A DNA stretch of 64,000 nucleotides from Puniceicoccaceae bacterium K14 (lineage in GTDB: Bacteria; Verrucomicrobiota; Verrucomicrobiia; Opitutales; Opitutaceae), in assembly GCA_022538095.1 (NCBI GenBank), contig JAKYXN010000018.1:1-64000 (forward strand), given 5' to 3'. Positions 2,469-22,717 of this stretch are shown here, one piece after another. Both the position numbers and the translations under genes were made by a program. Every line of letters begins with the position of its first letter. Positions within the stretch are counted from its first letter, which is position 1. Under the pieces are notes generated by a model that did no database searches, was not told the DNA's origin, and worked only from the letters and a program-made list of their open reading frames with translations.

Positions 2469-3101
2469 CTAGGGATGGACAAAAATTACAATTATAAGGA
2501 ATGGAATGATGAAGCCGGCTGCTACGATAGGCCAGGTGCTAGGGCGTCTTCTGGCATGTACCCAGAGAAGGGCTAATCCAGTAAGGCAAAAAATGATACA
2601 AGCGACGGAAAAAATGTCCATAAAGAGAACCCACTCGCTACCGGTATTGCGTCCTTTATGGAGGTCGTTGATGTAAGAGATAAACCCTCGGTTGGTGACT
2701 TCGTAGATGACATCACCGGTTTCTCGGTCGAGGCTCATCCACGCGTCGCCGCCTGGACGGGGAAGGTCAACGTAGATGTCGAATTCGGACCATTCGTAAG
2801 AGCGTCCGCCTAGGTCGACGCCAAATACGTCATGAAGCCAAGTTCTTACTTCGATAGGCAGTGGTTTCTTTTGATCGAGCTCATCACCTTCTTGGAATGC
2901 GAGAATTTCTTGTAGATTGGGCGGGAGGGATTCTTGTTTTTCGGTAGTTTGCGGCTTAGCCTTGATGCTGCCTGCGTGATTAAGAGTAATGCCTGTGAAA
3001 GCGAAAAGTATCATGGACACGAGACAGATAGCGCTGCTGACCCAGTGCCAGAGATAGAACTGTTTTGTCCAAAAGGCTTTGCTCTTTTTCTTTTTACTCA
3101 T
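2469..3101 (-). CDS. PepSY-associated TM helix protein
   Basis: 210-aa inner-membrane protein. The first membrane helix follows the FYLWHW start (about residues 16-40) and carries the FTGITLNHAGS motif typical of PepSY_TM proteins. A periplasmic PepSY-like domain follows (about 60-150), with AWMSLDRETGDVIYEV. Two more helices lie near the C-terminus (about 155-208). PepSY_TM proteins are thought to move electrons across the inner membrane, often with haem His ligands; His19, His42 and His183 are candidates. Position between a siderophore-type receptor and the DUF2271/ApbE genes suggests feeding electrons to a periplasmic flavoprotein for ferric reduction (inference). The 90-nt gap upstream holds a strong hairpin. 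No purine-rich ribosome site is visible before the ATG. Confidence 0.8.
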   Translation of the reverse strand: MSKKKKSKAFWTKQFYLWHWVSSAICLVSMILFAFTGITLNHAGSIKAKPQTTEKQESLPPNLQEILAFQEGDELDQKKPLPIEVRTWLHDVFGVDLGGRSYEWSEFDIYVDLPRPGGDAWMSLDRETGDVIYEVTNRGFISYINDLHKGRNTGSEWVLFMDIFSVACIIFCLTGLALLWVHARRRPSTWPIVAAGFIIPFLIIVIFVHP

Positions 3102-3124
3102 TGCGGAAGGAGGAAAAATAGAAT

Positions 3125-3160
3125 GTCCGCCAAGGCGAATTATTTTTCAGCTTGGCGGAC
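3125..3160 (-). terminator. Intra-operon hairpin, possible attenuator
   Basis: A perfect 10-bp inverted repeat, GTCCGCCAAG (3125-3134) and CTTGGCGGAC (3151-3160), encloses a 16-nt loop between the TonB receptor and the PepSY gene. On the minus strand it is followed by ATTCTATTTTT. This resembles a weak intrinsic terminator or processing stem that would lower expression of the downstream genes relative to the receptor. Confidence 0.5.
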
Positions 3161-3190
3161 GGCAGATTTAGACGTTATGGAGATTTAGGT

Positions 3191-5611
3191 CTAAAATTCG
3201 TACTTTACTGTGAGTTTGGCATTGCGAGCGTCTGCTGGCTGGCCACCCAAAAACATTGCCTTTGAGTAATAGCGTTCGTCAGTTAGGTTATAGACATTTA
3301 GGCGAAGGTTCCAATCATTGATCGTATAGCTGACACCTGCGTCGAACACGACATAGCTTGGGAGCATAGCGTCTGGAAGCCCGAATCCAGTAGAATTAAC
3401 TGTCCGTTCGTCTTCGTAGCTTAGGCCGAAATTAAAGGCTAGCGGTACGTCTGATTGACCCACTTTAATGCGATACTCCCCCCAAATACTGCCAAATTTC
3501 TGTGGAATTCCTTTGATTTGGACTGATTCAAAACCTGAGCGAATTGTAATAGCGTCGAGGTAGGTGGCGTTTGCATTTAGTGAGAATTGTTCCGTGAAGT
3601 CGATATTGATATCGAATTCGAATCCTTCCGAGTTGTTTTCATCGTCGAAGAAGTACTGAGGAACGTCTATGTTGAAGTCGGCATCTCCTTCGTTGTCATT
3701 GTATTCTGGATTCGAGTAGCGGAGATTTGTTAGGCGCGTTTCGTAGTAGGTGAAGGATGCAAGCAACTTATCATCGAAAGCCTGGTAGCGGATTCCGACA
3801 TCAAAGGACTTTGATTCAGAGTCTGGCCTGTCGTCAGAGCCTGCAATAGAACCGAGAATACTGTAGGCTGTGCGACCTTTTGCGATACTTGTGAACACTG
3901 AAAATTGGTCGTTGATCATGTAGTTCAGTCCGAGGTTGTATGTCGTGCCTGAGTCGCTTGTGTCTGCTTCAGGAGTCGCTGTTGGGGAGCGATCCGAGCC
4001 TTTGTGCTCATACGTTTGGTCGATAGTGTTGTATGCGTATCCGATTCGGGCTGTGAGGTTTTCATTGAATTGAACAATCTCTTGGAAACCAATACCCCAT
4101 GTTTCGACAGATTTGTCGTAGTTGGTGCGTAGGGACGGGCTGTAGTCCCAGAAGCTTCCTGTTGGCCAGTTGGGATCTCTGATGTCGTAGATATAGGGAA
4201 CTGGGTTGCCACCCTCTGCAGTGCCATCCTCATCCCAAATTGACCAAGACTTAACCTCGGATTCCAGGTTCAGGTATTGGAAGCTAAGAAGGTGTTCGCC
4301 GTTGAAGCGGTCAGATTCCCATTCGCTTTTAAGGTCTGCAAAGTACTGAAGTGAGGTTTCTTCGGCTTCTTGATGGCGATATTCCTGACGACGTGCGGAG
4401 AATGGGTAAATAACGCCATTCTCGTCAACTACGGGAGCGCGCGGATCCGCGTTGATTTCGCCATTACGGTTCCAATAGACGTAGTTGAAGGCACCTGTTT
4501 GGCGCGTAAAGTTAGATTCGTAAGTGCGGTACTGGAGCTGGTGTGTGAGCTCTGTCGTCTCCGAGAAAGTCCAGTCGTGGGTGACTTTGAATCTAAATTC
4601 TTCGCCTTGGTCTGGTTCGGCGATTGGAGAAATAAGGTCGCCGCTACCCAAGTCGTAAGGCTCTAGACCATCGATACTTGTAATTGAGTCGGCCAAAATT
4701 TGACGTTGCTCGTCGGTGAGTTGAACGCCTCGCTCACCGTCGCCATCAGCATCGAAATCATTGACTAAGTTTTCCCAAGTGTATCCGAGACTCGGATCTA
4801 TAAGGCTATCGAAATTGAGGATTCGAACGGGATCTCCCACGGAGTCGATTTGATTTTCATCGTCGAGGAAGCTCGCCAAGAATGAGAACTTGTGATTATC
4901 CGAAATCGAATGGCTCAGTGTTGCGTAGATTTCATTACGCTCACTGCTAAGGCCACGAAAACCATCTTCTGATTCGATAGAAGCAACTACACGGTACCCG
5001 GTGTTCTCACTCAAGGGGCCAGTGGTGTCTATTGTTCCTCGATAGTGGTCCCAGGCTCCGATGGCGAATTCGACTTCGTTGTAGTTGTAATCCAGTGGCT
5101 TCTTTTCGACGAAATTGACGATGCCTCCTGCTGAGCCTATTCCGTAGATTCCAGCTGCAGGACCTTTGATGACCTCTATACTCTCAACGTTTGTAAGCGT
5201 TCGAGTAGGGTTGTAGTTGTTGTTCAAGCCGCCTCCAGCGTACATCCCATCAGTCGTAAAATTGGCGGCGTGGCCGCGAACAATGATATTATCCCCGATG
5301 CCGTAGTTGTTACCTGCCTGAGAAACGCCGCTCAGGTTGCGGATTGCATCCTGTAGGGTAGTTATACCTTGTTGATCGAACAATACTTTGTCTATCGCGA
5401 TAAATGGAGCGGGTGTTTCCATTATATTGAGATTGGATTTTGTTGCTGAGAAAGATTCCAATATCAGAATGCTTGATTCTCCTTGTAGCGTGACTGGGTC
5501 TAGGTTGGCGCTAATCGTTTCGTCGTTTGCGAAACCCTGTACGCCGCAGGCAACTGAAGCTGTTAGAGCGCTAAGGAAAGCTCCTTGTCGTTTGATTTTT
5601 GATCGTATCAT
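3191..5611 (-). CDS. TonB-dependent siderophore-type receptor
   Basis: 806-aa outer-membrane receptor. It has a signal peptide (about residues 1-28), a plug domain (about 65-175, with IIVRGHAANFTTDGMY and VESIEVIKGPAAGIYGIGSAGGIVNFVEKK split over the usual plug signature), then a long beta-barrel ending in a C-terminal aromatic (VKYEF), as outer-membrane insertion requires. The plug resembles FhuE/FpvA-type ferric-siderophore receptors. It is first in the operon with PepSY, DUF2271, DUF4198 and ApbE, a context that points to iron. An inverted repeat lies about 20-50 nt upstream of the start and may be its operator. The exact ligand cannot be read from sequence; haem or another ferric chelate remains possible. 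Confidence 0.9.
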   Translation of the reverse strand: MIRSKIKRQGAFLSALTASVACGVQGFANDETISANLDPVTLQGESSILILESFSATKSNLNIMETPAPFIAIDKVLFDQQGITTLQDAIRNLSGVSQAGNNYGIGDNIIVRGHAANFTTDGMYAGGGLNNNYNPTRTLTNVESIEVIKGPAAGIYGIGSAGGIVNFVEKKPLDYNYNEVEFAIGAWDHYRGTIDTTGPLSENTGYRVVASIESEDGFRGLSSERNEIYATLSHSISDNHKFSFLASFLDDENQIDSVGDPVRILNFDSLIDPSLGYTWENLVNDFDADGDGERGVQLTDEQRQILADSITSIDGLEPYDLGSGDLISPIAEPDQGEEFRFKVTHDWTFSETTELTHQLQYRTYESNFTRQTGAFNYVYWNRNGEINADPRAPVVDENGVIYPFSARRQEYRHQEAEETSLQYFADLKSEWESDRFNGEHLLSFQYLNLESEVKSWSIWDEDGTAEGGNPVPYIYDIRDPNWPTGSFWDYSPSLRTNYDKSVETWGIGFQEIVQFNENLTARIGYAYNTIDQTYEHKGSDRSPTATPEADTSDSGTTYNLGLNYMINDQFSVFTSIAKGRTAYSILGSIAGSDDRPDSESKSFDVGIRYQAFDDKLLASFTYYETRLTNLRYSNPEYNDNEGDADFNIDVPQYFFDDENNSEGFEFDINIDFTEQFSLNANATYLDAITIRSGFESVQIKGIPQKFGSIWGEYRIKVGQSDVPLAFNFGLSYEDERTVNSTGFGLPDAMLPSYVVFDAGVSYTINDWNLRLNVYNLTDERYYSKAMFLGGQPADARNAKLTVKYEF

Positions 5612-18426: not shown

Positions 18427-20547
18427 TCAGAATCTGTACTTGGCCGTAACGCCGATTTGTCTTGGGTCTGCAGGGTCTTCGTAACGAGTTGGAATCCAGT
18501 CGGGTTGAGCGTTGCCGAAGTAGAAGAGTCGTTTTTGATATTCTTCGTCTAAGAGGTTCTTCGCCCAGACGGTGATCGTCCAGTTATCGTATTGGTATCC
18601 AATTTTTGCGTTAACTACGTTGTAGGAATCGCGTTGCTGATTGTTGTCCGCGCTATTGGATTCAAAATAGCTATCGCGGCCTACGAATTCGATATTGGAT
18701 AGGAAGCCGTTGTCTCCCGTGTAGTCTAGGCTAGCTGAGTAGGAGTAGCTTGGAGCGTTGGAGAGTTCACGATCAGCCCCGTCTAGTTCTGCTTCGAGAA
18801 GGCCCAGCCCAACGTTCGCTTTGAGGTTCGAGGAAATCGACCAGCTTGCTTCCGCTTCGAGGCCGAAGTGTTCTGCTCCCCCTTGGTTGGAAGTGAAATA
18901 GCGGAAGAATCCGCCTGCTCCAGCGGAGTCGCGCATTTGAGCCTCGCTGCGGTCTAAGTAGAAAACGGTAACTTTTGTAAATACCGCGTTATCTAACCAT
19001 AAACTGCGAAGCCCGATTTCATAGTTCCAAAGAGTTTCGTCACCGTAAGTTAGCGGATCACCTTCTTCAAGGAATGCTGCCACGTTTGCGCCGCCCGCTT
19101 TGTACCCGCGAGCTAATGTTGCGAAGACCATATGCTGTTCGCTCAAGTCGTGCTCGAATGTTATATTGCCGCCGAATAGAGTTCCAGACTCGCTCCCAGT
19201 TCCTGTAGGAAGGGGTGAACCGTAGTAGAGTCCGTCTGATTGCGCTTCAATCGAGTAGTACTCAGAGCGCAGGCCTATGGTGACGCGAGAGTTTTCGGAG
19301 AAGTCGTGAGCGATCTGGCCAAAGAGTGCGTAGTTTTCGCTTTCATACGTGCTGTCTGCGAGAACAGGCCACTCGTCACTGCTCCACATGTCACGGTAGT
19401 CGATGTCGCTCGATTCATCGAGGACTCCTAAATATACTCCAATGGTCCAGCGGTCCGCCCAACCGAGGGCGTCTTCTTGCACGCTGGAATCAACGCGAAA
19501 TTCTTGGGAGAATACTTCGCGTTCGCGTGCGATTTGCATGAAGCCGTCGTATGAGCGAGGATCGATGCTGTTGAGTGTTGTCCAGTCGGAGTCGTAACTG
19601 TAAAAGGAATCTGTGTCACCGAAGCTTGTGATCGTGGTGAAGTCGAAGTAGTCACCACTCGTGTACGTTCCGCGCAAGCTGCCAGCTATAGACTCTTGTT
19701 CGTCACGACCAGGCTCGTCGGAGAAGACTTCGAAGCCTGTGTTGTCCAATGACCATTCGTCGTATCCGTTATTTACATCGGCGTAAAAGAGGGTGGTGTC
19801 CCATTGCCAAGCTTCGCTGGCGTTCCAACGAAGTTTGAAACGGGTAGTGAGCTCGTCGCGTTCGTTGGTGTCGTCACGGTTTAACGTCTTGTTTTCGCGC
19901 CAGCCGTCTTGCTGCAATTGGTGCACTGATACGCGGAAAGTGAGGTCTTCCCCGCTGAGAGGCCCACTAAAGGCAAGGCCGGTGGAAAGGAGGCTGTCTT
20001 CGCCTATGGTTGTTTCGATTTGTCCGTTCCAGTATGGAGTCGGGGCAGTTGAGACGAGTTTGATTACTCCGCCGGCAGCGTTGAGACCGAAAGCGCCTGC
20101 TTGAGGACCTCGAAGGACTTCAACTTGTTGGAGGTCGAAGAGGTTTCCGATAGTTCCGATGCCGGTAAAGTCTAAGTCATCAACGACCATACGGACGGAT
20201 GAGTCGGGCGTTTCGCCTTCAAATTGGGAATTTTCACCGATTCCACGAATTTGGATGTAGCGTGGGCGGGAAGTGCCGCCTGTCCAAGTGACATTTGGGA
20301 TGGAACCGATAATATCTTCGAAGTGTAGGCTCCCATCCGCGTCGAATCGTGATTCGTCTAAAACTGTGATACTAGCTGTGGTATCCTGAAGCTCCGTTTG
20401 CCAAAGTTCACCTGTGACGATGAGGGAGGGAAGGTCTACAACCTCCGCTAAATCGTCTGATGCAACTTGTGCATATGGTTGCGTAGCAGCAGTAAGGGAA
20501 AATACTCCGAATACAGTCCATGCGTGTAAGTTGTTGGTTTTCTTCAT
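18427..20547 (-). CDS. TonB-dependent receptor, probably thiamine
   Basis: About 706-aa outer-membrane receptor. The ATG at 20547 is chosen rather than the TTG at 20559, which lies inside an upstream hairpin arm. It has a signal peptide ending near PYAQ, a TonB-box-like VDLPSLIVTGEL, a plug with RYIQIRGIGENSQF and VEVLRGPQAGAFGLNAAGG, and a barrel ending VTAKYRF. The leader carries a TPP riboswitch, so the expected ligand is thiamine or a phosphorylated derivative. It lies divergent from a PnuC-family transporter and a kinase. Receptor class is certain; the substrate rests on the riboswitch. Confidence 0.88.
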   Translation of the reverse strand: MKKTNNLHAWTVFGVFSLTAATQPYAQVASDDLAEVVDLPSLIVTGELWQTELQDTTASITVLDESRFDADGSLHFEDIIGSIPNVTWTGGTSRPRYIQIRGIGENSQFEGETPDSSVRMVVDDLDFTGIGTIGNLFDLQQVEVLRGPQAGAFGLNAAGGVIKLVSTAPTPYWNGQIETTIGEDSLLSTGLAFSGPLSGEDLTFRVSVHQLQQDGWRENKTLNRDDTNERDELTTRFKLRWNASEAWQWDTTLFYADVNNGYDEWSLDNTGFEVFSDEPGRDEQESIAGSLRGTYTSGDYFDFTTITSFGDTDSFYSYDSDWTTLNSIDPRSYDGFMQIAREREVFSQEFRVDSSVQEDALGWADRWTIGVYLGVLDESSDIDYRDMWSSDEWPVLADSTYESENYALFGQIAHDFSENSRVTIGLRSEYYSIEAQSDGLYYGSPLPTGTGSESGTLFGGNITFEHDLSEQHMVFATLARGYKAGGANVAAFLEEGDPLTYGDETLWNYEIGLRSLWLDNAVFTKVTVFYLDRSEAQMRDSAGAGGFFRYFTSNQGGAEHFGLEAEASWSISSNLKANVGLGLLEAELDGADRELSNAPSYSYSASLDYTGDNGFLSNIEFVGRDSYFESNSADNNQQRDSYNVVNAKIGYQYDNWTITVWAKNLLDEEYQKRLFYFGNAQPDWIPTRYEDPADPRQIGVTAKYRF

Positions 20548-20550
20548 TTT

Positions 20551-20579
20551 GGATCTCAATAATTAGTTGTTTGAGATCC
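20551..20579 (-). promoter_or_regulatory. Start-proximal hairpin, riboswitch expression platform
   Basis: Read on the minus strand, GGATCTCAA and TTGAGATCC (20571-20579 and 20551-20559) form a perfect 9-bp stem with an 11-nt loop that ends three bases before the ATG. It contains the only purine-rich segment (GAGA) able to act as a ribosome site, so it could block initiation when thiamine pyrophosphate is bound upstream. Confidence 0.55.
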
Positions 20580-20629
20580 GGTGAATAGCGAAGAAAAGCG
20601 AAGCGAACCAGGTAACTAGAGCGGCTTCG

Positions 20630-20746
20630 TTCCTTTTCCTACGCCGGTGTCAACCGGATCAGGTTCTAAGGGACCGCTACTGCGCTGCTCGGTTTTTCGA
20701 ACAGCGGGGAAGCATCTCAGACCCATTCCAGGTCGCCCCTAAGGAT
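20630..20746 (-). ncRNA. TPP (thiamine pyrophosphate) riboswitch
   Basis: On the minus strand the leader contains the conserved THI-box elements in order: TTAGGGGCGACC, GGGTCTGAGATGC, a variable stem-loop (GCTGTTCG...CGAGCAGC), CCCTTAGAACCTGATCCGG and CACCGGCGTAGGAAAAGGAA. CTGAGA and ACCTGATC are the pyrimidine- and pyrophosphate-sensing core, and the ATCCTT/AAGGAA ends can form P1. It precedes the TonB receptor and should shut it off when TPP is abundant. The divergent transporter gene has no such element. Confidence 0.95.
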
Positions 20747-20865
20747 GGGTGAAGGGGGTTAAAGCCGAATTTGGAATTGTCAACCTCTTGTGAGGTGCAA
20801 TTTTGCTTAGGGTCATTTCGGGGATGGACAGATGATGGCAAATTCTTTTTCGAATAGCGTGTCTT

Positions 20866-21477
20866 ATGGAAACAATCCTAAACCAGATTCAGCAAACGAC
20901 ATTGGTCGAATGGCTCGGCACTGCAACTGGACTCATTGGAGTCTACCTTAGTATTAAGGAAAAGGCGGCGGCGTGGCCAATGTTCATTTTTTGCTATGGT
21001 CTGTACGCATACCTAAGCTATGCGGCTTCGTTGAATGCCGCGTTGGTGTTGAATGCGTGTTTTATTCCGATTTCGGTTTACGGGTGGTGGCAGTGGTCAA
21101 AGGCGGCTAAGGGTGAGCAAGAAAGCGATTCTGGCGAAGGTAGCTTAATGATCGCCCGGATGAGCTCTAAGGAAATTCGTGTTTCTTTTTGTATTGTTAT
21201 TTTTGGTACAGGTGTCATCGGGCTAGCCCTTTCTCATTTTGCGGGAGGCGCGATGCCGTATCTCGATGCGTTTGCCACGATGTGTTCGTTTACGGGGCAA
21301 TGGTGGCTTACTCGGAAACGTTTGGAAAACTGGCTTTTTTGGTTGGCTGCCGATTTTGCATTTATTTACCTTTGGGGTGCCCAAGGGTATTGGGTTTCTG
21401 TGTTGATGTTCAGTGTATTCATTTGGTTGGCAACAACGGGATATTTGAGTTGGAAAAAGGAGCTAGCGAAAGCTTGA
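20866..21477 (+). CDS. PnuC-family vitamin transporter (PnuT-like)
   Basis: 203-aa inner-membrane protein with about seven hydrophobic helices. The PnuC signature is present: WLGTATGLIGVYLSIKEK (15-32), PMFIFCYGLYAYLSY (about 35-49), FIPISVYGWWQW (about 64-75) and TGQWWLTRKRLENWLFWLAADFAFIYLW (in two parts, about 143-170). PnuC proteins carry nicotinamide riboside, PnuT relatives thiamine. The divergent thiamine-type receptor under TPP control argues for PnuT; the downstream NadR-like kinase could argue for nicotinamide riboside. Its stop overlaps the start of that kinase, so trapping by phosphorylation is the likely mechanism. Confidence 0.85.
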   Translation: METILNQIQQTTLVEWLGTATGLIGVYLSIKEKAAAWPMFIFCYGLYAYLSYAASLNAALVLNACFIPISVYGWWQWSKAAKGEQESDSGEGSLMIARMSSKEIRVSFCIVIFGTGVIGLALSHFAGGAMPYLDAFATMCSFTGQWWLTRKRLENWLFWLAADFAFIYLWGAQGYWVSVLMFSVFIWLATTGYLSWKKELAKA

Positions 21478-22001
21478 AGTCTGGGAATTCAGAGGTAAAG
21501 CGTGTTGTGTTTATCGGTGCGGAATGCACAGGTAAGAGCACTATCGCCAGAGCGATTGCAACTCGTTTGGGGGAACCTTGTTCTACCGAGTATGTGCGCC
21601 ACTATGTCGATCAATTGGATCGACCGCTTATTCAAGATGATTTGGATCCGATTGCTCGTGGTCAGTTAAGCTTAGAAGATGAAGCGTTTTCTGAAGCGTC
21701 TCACTATGTGATTCACGACACCAATATACTTTCTTCAATACTGTACGCAGAGCATTATTTCTCAACCCATATCGATTGGGTGGATGATACGTTTAGTAAA
21801 CGACTTTATGATACCTACTTCCTGTGCCAGCCGGATATGCTTTGGGTGGCTGATCCAGGGCAACGAGAAGGTCCTCGAGAACGAGAGGAAATGCAAAAAC
21901 GGTTTGAAGAGATATTGAATCGATATGAGATTCAGTATGAATCGCTTGGTGGGAGCGTAGAGCAGCGTCTAGAAACCGTGGTTCGTTGTTTGAGGGGTTG
22001 A
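21474..22001 (+). CDS. NadR-like P-loop kinase, coupled to transporter
   Basis: 175 aa from a TTG start at 21474, which overlaps the transporter stop (TTGA) and is preceded by AAGGAG at a suitable distance. No nearer ATG fits. A P-loop GAECTGKST lies at the N-terminus, followed by STEYVRHYVDQL, and the C-terminal half keeps the NadR ribosylnicotinamide-kinase layout (WVADPGQREGPREREEMQKRF in two parts). The adenylyltransferase and DNA-binding parts of NadR are absent. Substrate is nicotinamide riboside by homology or thiamine by context: a PnuT partner would need thiamine phosphorylation. The thiamine-kinase reading is inference. Confidence 0.78.
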   Translation: MKSGNSEVKRVVFIGAECTGKSTIARAIATRLGEPCSTEYVRHYVDQLDRPLIQDDLDPIARGQLSLEDEAFSEASHYVIHDTNILSSILYAEHYFSTHIDWVDDTFSKRLYDTYFLCQPDMLWVADPGQREGPREREEMQKRFEEILNRYEIQYESLGGSVEQRLETVVRCLRG

Positions 22002-22060: not shown

Positions 22061-22717
22061 TTAGTCGCTTAGGATTACTTTTCGTGACCACTGGGATGGA
22101 TTGCTACGCTTGTCCCTTAGGGCTCCTGGTGAGCTTTGTTCAAAATCTACATTTCGAGGAAATAGAAAAATGGATCCCAGCAGCTGTTCGCACTTACTTA
22201 TTCCGAGGTATTCAAATATTTCGGGGGTTCGTAGAGCTCCTCCACTGGACCAGTAATTGGGTATTTCACGTGAGGTGGCAGCGAGCAGCATATTTTGAAT
22301 CGCAGCGGATGCGGCGGCGATATTTTCTACATTTCCGAGAGTAGGTGCGAATGCTTGTCCCGAAATCGCAGATGCGTCAGGCGTTGGGAGCCAGGTAAAT
22401 TGTATTAGAAACGAAGATACTGCTAGCATCTTAGGGATTTTCGTTTTGTCGCCTAATTGCAAAAGATGTTCACGCAAATGTCGACACTGTGCGGCGTCTA
22501 AGATGTAGCAGCGCCAGGGTTCAACTCCACTGAGGTCGGTAGATTTGTGGGAACTATGGGCGGGTTTGTGGAAGGGGGCCCATGCGGCGGCTGAAATAAG
22601 CTCATCGATAGGCAAATCGTCTTGATCGATGGGGAGAGGTGTCTCTGAAAGAGTTTTAAGAGTTTTTCGATCGCGGATTACTTGGTCTATCGTTCGTGGT
22701 TCGCTAGAATCGGTCAT
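22061..22717 (-). CDS. Nitroreductase family protein
   Basis: 218-aa cytosolic flavoprotein. The N-terminal IDQVIRDRKTLKTLS matches the FMN-phosphate-binding Arg region of nitroreductases (usually RRSxR; here RDRKT). AAAWAPFHKPAHS replaces the usual AAxxAPSxxNxQPW, and the C-terminal GIS-LGSIFLFPR region follows. It probably transfers hydride from NAD(P)H to quinones or nitro compounds. It stands alone, converging on the kinase gene 59 nt away; the terminator upstream belongs to the porin transcript. Substrate unknown. Confidence 0.8.
   Translation of the reverse strand: MTDSSEPRTIDQVIRDRKTLKTLSETPLPIDQDDLPIDELISAAAWAPFHKPAHSSHKSTDLSGVEPWRCYILDAAQCRHLREHLLQLGDKTKIPKMLAVSSFLIQFTWLPTPDASAISGQAFAPTLGNVENIAAASAAIQNMLLAATSREIPNYWSSGGALRTPEIFEYLGISKCEQLLGSIFLFPRNVDFEQSSPGALRDKRSNPSQWSRKVILSD

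Follow-up and report, generated by a model that had tools for sequence, protein, structure and literature searches.

A gene neighbourhood of the same plan as the one described here is known from Bacteroides, where OMthi, pnuT, and tnr3 make up TPP-controlled thiamine uptake operons, Tnr3 being termed a thiamine pyrophosphorylase (PMC5613172). The two systems share a TPP riboswitch, an outer-membrane receptor, a PnuC-family permease, and a phosphorylating enzyme, which is Tnr3 in Bacteroides, whereas it is a NadR-type kinase here. ThiK (YcfN) resembles this kinase in the reaction proposed below, that is, thiamine to thiamine monophosphate (TMP) with ThiL downstream, but belongs to a different family; Tnr3 we take to be a thiamine pyrophosphokinase (TPK). 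With the kinase domain of NadR, the kinase shares its fold, alignable P-loop and DT motifs, and a partner PnuC, whereas it has neither the NMN adenylyltransferase nor the DNA-binding part of NadR and is linked to TPP-controlled receptors. As for the transporter, a 2018 JGP paper, to go by its title, reportedly found that PnuT, a PnuC-family protein (presumably of Shewanella woodyi), takes up thiamine by facilitated diffusion; the PnuC described here is likened to it by family and by this reported uptake.

Thus, the neighbourhood logic of a receptor, a PnuT-like permease, and a trapping enzyme is already known, and it is the NadR-type enzyme in the trapping place that is new to us in this role. 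A reading made from the letters of the DNA alone (hereafter, the sequence-only reading) had known of no thiamine kinase of this fold, and we likewise found none in the open-access literature searched; a prediction of this kind may already stand in subscription papers, for example in a comparative study of thiamine genes from 2002.

Anatomy of the locus

The stretch of DNA analysed (the window) comprises the first 64,000 nucleotides of a contig of Puniceicoccaceae bacterium K14 (JAKYXN010000018.1). On its forward strand, a PnuC-family transporter gene (20866..21477; PF04973, E 1.9e-44, 152.2 bits against a cut-off of 27.3; TIGR01528, 78.4 bits) is followed by a gene for a stand-alone P-loop kinase of the ribosylnicotinamide-kinase type (21474..22001; PF13521 AAA_28, E 2.5e-34, 119.3 bits against a cut-off of 27, profile positions 1–164 of 164). 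The first T of the kinase's TTG start immediately precedes the PnuC stop (TTGA), so that the two genes overlap by 4 bases; with this start, the N-terminus of the kinase is as long as those of four relatives translated from ATG (L066, L067, L089, and L099). A nitroreductase-family gene (22061–22717; PF00881) lies convergent with the kinase. On the reverse strand, a TonB-dependent outer-membrane receptor (18427..20559; Plug and TonB_dep_Rec_b-barrel), probably an OMR1-like thiamine receptor, is preceded just upstream by a full-length TPP riboswitch aptamer (20619..20750, reverse strand; RF00059, 71.1 bits against a gathering score of 54.3); for the receptor start, ATG at 20547 is as likely as TTG at 20559. 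These data bear out the sequence-only reading, which had placed a PnuC-type transporter and a TTG-started NadR-like kinase overlapping its stop beside a TPP-controlled receptor.

The divergent intergenic stretch between riboswitch and pnuC (20751..20865) holds no second TPP aptamer on the pnuC side, and Rfam gave no other match at gathering score in the whole window. Since the only aptamer lies on the receptor strand, the pnuC–kinase pair is divergent from, and not controlled by, that riboswitch. Elsewhere in the same genome another TPP aptamer lies upstream of thiC, and ThiC, ThiE, and ThiL each score above their model cut-offs; thus, the organism can probably make thiamine, and the unit would add salvage.

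Family and fold of the kinase

The NadR model TIGR01526 matched the window kinase over its kinase half only (positions 162–316 of 325), with 79.1 bits against a cut-off of 341.15; the adenylyltransferase domain of a full NadR is missing from it, and the NMN adenylyltransferase half was absent from all three stand-alone kinases of the receptor-linked types that were scanned (window, L066, and L145). Neither the ThiK model (TIGR02721) nor that of the TPK catalytic domain (PF04263) matched the window kinase at E 1. An AlphaFold2 model built from 15 relatives had a mean pLDDT of 90.3, and its best structural match was the kinase domain of NadR in entry 8x7f (Z 23.7; 175 aligned residues at an rmsd of 1.7; 24–25 % identity), followed by the NadR entries 6gyf, 6gye, 6gzo, and 1lw7 (Z 19.3–20.1). 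After these five, the best structure other than NadR was a deoxycytidine kinase at Z 16.0, which thymidylate kinases did not exceed either, and Foldseek likewise ranked NadR first. By this ranking, the window kinase has the ribosylnicotinamide-kinase fold, and the adenylyltransferase half is absent. NadR, deoxynucleoside kinases, and thymidylate kinases transfer one phosphate. No feature favouring thiamine over nicotinamide riboside was found in the sequence examined.

The kinase might belong to an ordinary nicotinamide riboside uptake unit, in which PnuC and a ribosylnicotinamide kinase would yield NMN and which would stand beside a thiamine receptor by chance. Its fold and the best families of both proteins (NadR and PnuC) are those of such a unit, and the window pair lacks a riboswitch. 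Moreover, PnuC accompanies a longer NadR-like protein in Nostoc, Leptospira, Tritonibacter, and an E. coli plasmid, and the Tritonibacter region, which was the one of the four searched for a TPP aptamer, gave no match. PnuC near a NadR-type kinase is ordinary in itself. A single-query search (E 1e-8) through 387 genomes from the phylum matched the kinase in 57 of them. Of the 60 matches listed outside the window, 31 neighbourhoods were fetched, 11 of close and 20 of more distant relatives, and in all 31 a PnuC relative lay within 1 kb of the kinase. An initial scan of the genome collection with the kinase as query had found nothing.

Types of kinase and of PnuC

Alignments and trees of kinase and PnuC resolved several types, which we call window, operon, DPQR, and NadR. 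The trees omit L099 and L145 as repeats of L036 and L059, L116, which has no kinase in its DNA, and the E. coli PnuC (L149). The window type (19 rows; motifs DTN-LSS and DPGQR) has 87/87 support as a whole in the kinase tree and 99/98 in an 11-row core. The operon type, made up of loci titled Prosthecobacter, Akkermansia, and Verrucomicrobiaceae together with G081 (L064), is supported by 100/99 in the kinase tree and 100/100 in the PnuC tree; in L064 no TPP aptamer was found within the fetched DNA. In the kinase tree this type joins Persicobacter with 93/93 support, and the PnuC tree, which carries a warning of meeting long branches, leaves Persicobacter unplaced, so that its placement there is unsure. 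The DPQR type comes from the window's own family. The best database families of these three stand-alone types are NAD enzymes.

The closest solved structure to the window PnuC is the nicotinamide riboside transporter PnuC 4qtn (E 1e-9). The clade of the window PnuC has 100/100 support, and all of its 19 rows come from genomes or loci with a TPP-controlled receptor; the genomic context thus favours thiamine transport by this putative PnuT-like permease. One position considered as a marker of specificity (Asn/Asp; Asp in the window) was discarded, since the NadR-type pairs L060 and L061 have Asp as well.

Linkage to TPP-controlled receptors

The window receptor was aligned with three relatives, and a scan of the genome collection with this alignment provided the best 80 of 119 loci, whose titles name groups that we take to be Verrucomicrobiota. 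An initial regular expression for the TPP core suggested wrongly that many of the receptors had no riboswitch; Rfam scans and a model of our own (R1, 14 base pairs) found the aptamer. With R1, it was detected upstream of the receptor in 78 of these best 80 loci, the other two (L079 and L129) having the receptor at a contig edge. R1 was built from the aptamers of some of the same loci and is for those no independent test; Rfam's own TPP model, which is independent of it, was positive in 10/10, 14/15, and 9/11 chosen loci.

PnuC and the kinase stood beside the receptor in 13 of the best 80 loci, seven of them divergent as in the window (L066, L067, L077, L087, L089, L099, and L136, one of which is apparently G310) and six co-directional; the window itself and G223 (L035) are two further divergent cases. 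In the six co-directional loci (L097, L100, L112, L115, L144, and L145), TPP aptamer, receptor, PnuC, and kinase follow one another on one strand, with ATGA overlaps between PnuC and kinase. The pair lies about 3.6 kb from the receptor in L076, the contig ends inside PnuC in L116, and the other 65 loci showed no such pair in the DNA at hand, some of which is short. In L067, an ORF about 2.9 kb downstream of the receptor resembles by eye a phosphotransferase of the aminoglycoside/choline-kinase type, possibly another thiamine kinase of that strain.

A comparable arrangement was found in two plasmids of Persicobacter (Bacteroidota; CP012861.1 and NZ_AP025293.1), where PnuC and a kinase of 172 or 173 residues, again with an ATGA overlap, are followed directly by a TPP aptamer and a TonB receptor. 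The aptamer was identified by the Rfam model in CP012861.1 and by R1, as a weaker match (E 7e-8, 46.7 bits), in NZ_AP025293.1. BLASTP gave no significant similarity between the CP012861.1 receptor and that of the window, and the link of the kinase to TPP control is thus independent of one close receptor family; Persicobacter provides an independent case from another phylum. The survey for TPP riboswitches that the sequence-only reading had called for thus yielded a shared cluster in six Verrucomicrobiota loci and a flanking position in two Bacteroidota plasmids. Two kinase subfamilies and two phyla show this linkage, and the receptors involved are dissimilar; this argues against a nicotinamide riboside unit placed there by chance, as does the lack of the NMN adenylyltransferase half in the three stand-alone kinases scanned.

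Second pairs and pairs apart from the receptor

Two genomes, G039 and G048, each contain two pairs, one of the window type (L041 and L042) and one in which a two-domain NadR-like protein has a PnuC of its own (L060 and L061). The two-domain proteins match both halves of TIGR01526 with 152.6 and 143.4 bits, below the cut-off of 341.15, and in L060 (G039; 2631–5515) genes for NUDIX, ADP-ribosylglycohydrolase, PnuC, and the NadR-like protein stand in a row, which is likely an NAD salvage locus. Such a duplication fits one pair serving NAD and the other serving something else, and counts further against nicotinamide riboside as the substrate of the window-type pair.

In nine loci, relatives of the window pair stand apart from the receptor, and no TPP aptamer of the pair's own was found there. 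A ThrH-like (phosphatase) gene lies near the pair in eight of the nine (L038–L045; e.g., L042:3375–4364), and in seven of those eight a small Dabb-like gene separates it from pnuC; these labels were given by eye, the families being checked in L042 and, for the ThrH-like gene, in L045. Neither neighbour is known to be tied to thiamine.

Co-occurrence of kinase and receptor

Co-occurrence was counted across the window's family and order, in the 61 genomes listed by name, using a threshold of E 1e-90 for the receptor and, for the kinase, a profile of all stand-alone types at E 1e-4. Among the genomes listed, the kinase profile matched 34 of 35 with the receptor but 9 of 26 without it; since the profile is blind to types, the 34 include types never seen linked. 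Both genes were thus present in 34 of the 61 genomes listed, the receptor alone in 1, the kinase alone in 9, and neither in at least 17 (Fisher p 8e-8). Collapsing to genera, which is the one correction made for relatedness, left both genes in 19 of the genera listed, the receptor alone in 1, the kinase alone in 4, and neither in at least 11 (p 3e-5). The sequence-only reading would have been contradicted by homologues that do not track with thiamine genes; among the genomes listed, they do track with them. These profile counts, restricted to family and order, replace earlier single-query counts made by hand (32/43 receptor genomes against 25/344 others), and the profile found a kinase in G075, G169, and G330, where the single query at E 1e-8 had suggested its absence.

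In two of the nine genomes with the kinase alone (G348 and G375), a different TonB plug protein, unmatched by the window receptor, lies behind a TPP aptamer (L181 and L179) and is perhaps a second type of thiamine receptor. In G363 the receptor is present, ThiE and ThiC are absent, and the kinase was not detected. A related receptor occurs in seven genomes of other families (G015, G023, G093, G157, G177, G186, and G189) in which the kinase search gave no match, so that the receptor does not always accompany the kinase; of the five fetched, a TPP aptamer stood by the receptor at gathering score in L183, L184, L185, and L186 (G015, G023, G177, and G157), and none was found in L187.

A gap in the thiamine pathway

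Thiamine pathway genes were searched for in 71 genomes. TPK (PF04263) was found in none of them, in which they differ from Bacteroides, and in 7 of 14 controls. ThiK (TIGR02721) was above cut-off in none of the 71 and gave weaker matches in eight, with no match in the window genome; its model is narrow (above cut-off in 1 of the 14 controls), and a distant ThiK could be missed. ThiL was matched in 70 of the 71 genomes, above cut-off in 61. One genome in a single contig, G018, has receptor and kinase and no ThiL match.

Thirteen genomes carry the two linked kinase types (G000, G223, G310, G366, G381, G172, G108, G039, G048, G001, G146, G204, and G316), and in all 13 a TPP aptamer stands by the receptor. 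ThiE and ThiC were both absent in nine of them (all but G000, G172, G039, and G048), each of which is 97–99 % complete. ThiL was matched in all 13, above cut-off in all but G223; TPK was found in none, and ThiK in none above cut-off, G316 giving a sub-cut-off match (E 6e-7). In G108, the TPP-linked receptor (G108:C3:306423–307544) was matched in part and contains three in-frame stops, and the kinase frame is open. A table of ThiE against kinase in 43 genomes (27/28 versus 10/15) is biased, the genomes having been hand-chosen mostly for possessing the kinase or the receptor, and was not used as a test.

Where ThiE is absent, salvage of HMP or the thiazole is of no help and intact thiamine must come in. 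Because ThiL acts on TMP, a thiamine kinase is then required unless TMP itself is imported, and the PnuC-linked kinase fits this step as the only candidate that our searches brought up in the ThiE-less genomes; the argument proceeds by elimination among known families, so that a kinase of another, unrelated family may fill the step. A nicotinamide riboside unit would leave the conversion of thiamine to TMP in these genomes without a gene, and we consider that explanation improbable, though the least so of the three alternatives.

Much the same gap bears on the possibility that PnuC carries HMP or hydroxyethylthiazole and that the kinase phosphorylates this precursor. TPP riboswitches also control vitamer salvage genes (in G207, ThiE and, by eye, a ThiM-like gene lie behind one), the window genome keeps ThiE, and the legend of a published B1 survey gives the specificity of the transporter omr1 as unclear (PMC12442306); in the nine of 13 linked-type genomes with neither ThiE nor ThiC, however, the half-molecule could not be joined, which makes precursor salvage very unlikely. 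We give equally little credence to a direct conversion of thiamine and ATP to TPP and AMP, like that of the presumed TPK beside PnuT in Bacteroides, which the same neighbourhood logic as in pnuT–tnr3 and the ThiL-less G018 would suit, since the fold relatives move one phosphate and ThiL, needless in that case, is kept in 70 of the 71 genomes (61 above cut-off), including the nine ThiE-less ones.

Proposed function and implications

Comparative genomics thus argues for a B1 salvage unit. The TonB receptor, presumably repressed by TPP, would bring thiamine across the outer membrane, the PnuT-like protein would pass it through the inner membrane, the co-translated NadR-type kinase would trap it as TMP, and ThiL would convert TMP to TPP; the kinase, its substrate having changed to thiamine, would replace ThiK or TPK. 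We regard this combination of import, thiamine kinase of the ribosylnicotinamide-kinase fold, and ThiL as probable, and the thiamine kinase activity of the NadR-type protein as probable to the same degree. The change of substrate from nicotinamide riboside to thiamine, which the sequence-only reading had made conditional on PnuT carrying thiamine, thereby gains support from linkage, co-occurrence, and the pathway gap, the substrate itself being one that we infer. Against it stand the window pair and the nine unlinked pairs with no riboswitch, G363, G018, L064, and the seven receptor genomes in which no kinase was found.

Two surveys describe genomes to which such a unit would be relevant: those of Flavobacteriales and Cytophagales with ThiL and omr1 but lacking key synthesis genes, which are read as salvagers (PMC12236431), and clusters in which B1 synthesis and transport systems of any described kind are lacking (PMC10881298). 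Genomes of this sort would depend on a thiamine kinase, and an enzyme concealed by an NAD annotation would supply the step. With somewhat less assurance than for the locus itself, we favour the view that the stand-alone NadR-like branch (window, operon/Persicobacter, and DPQR types) consists of thiamine kinases feeding ThiL and provides, together with PnuT-like permeases, the main way in which thiamine-dependent Verrucomicrobiota, and some Bacteroidota, salvage B1. If this is true, the annotation of many PnuC–NadR pairs would be corrected, B1 dependence would become readable from genomes, and the kinase would represent a vitamin kinase that changed its substrate together with its transporter.
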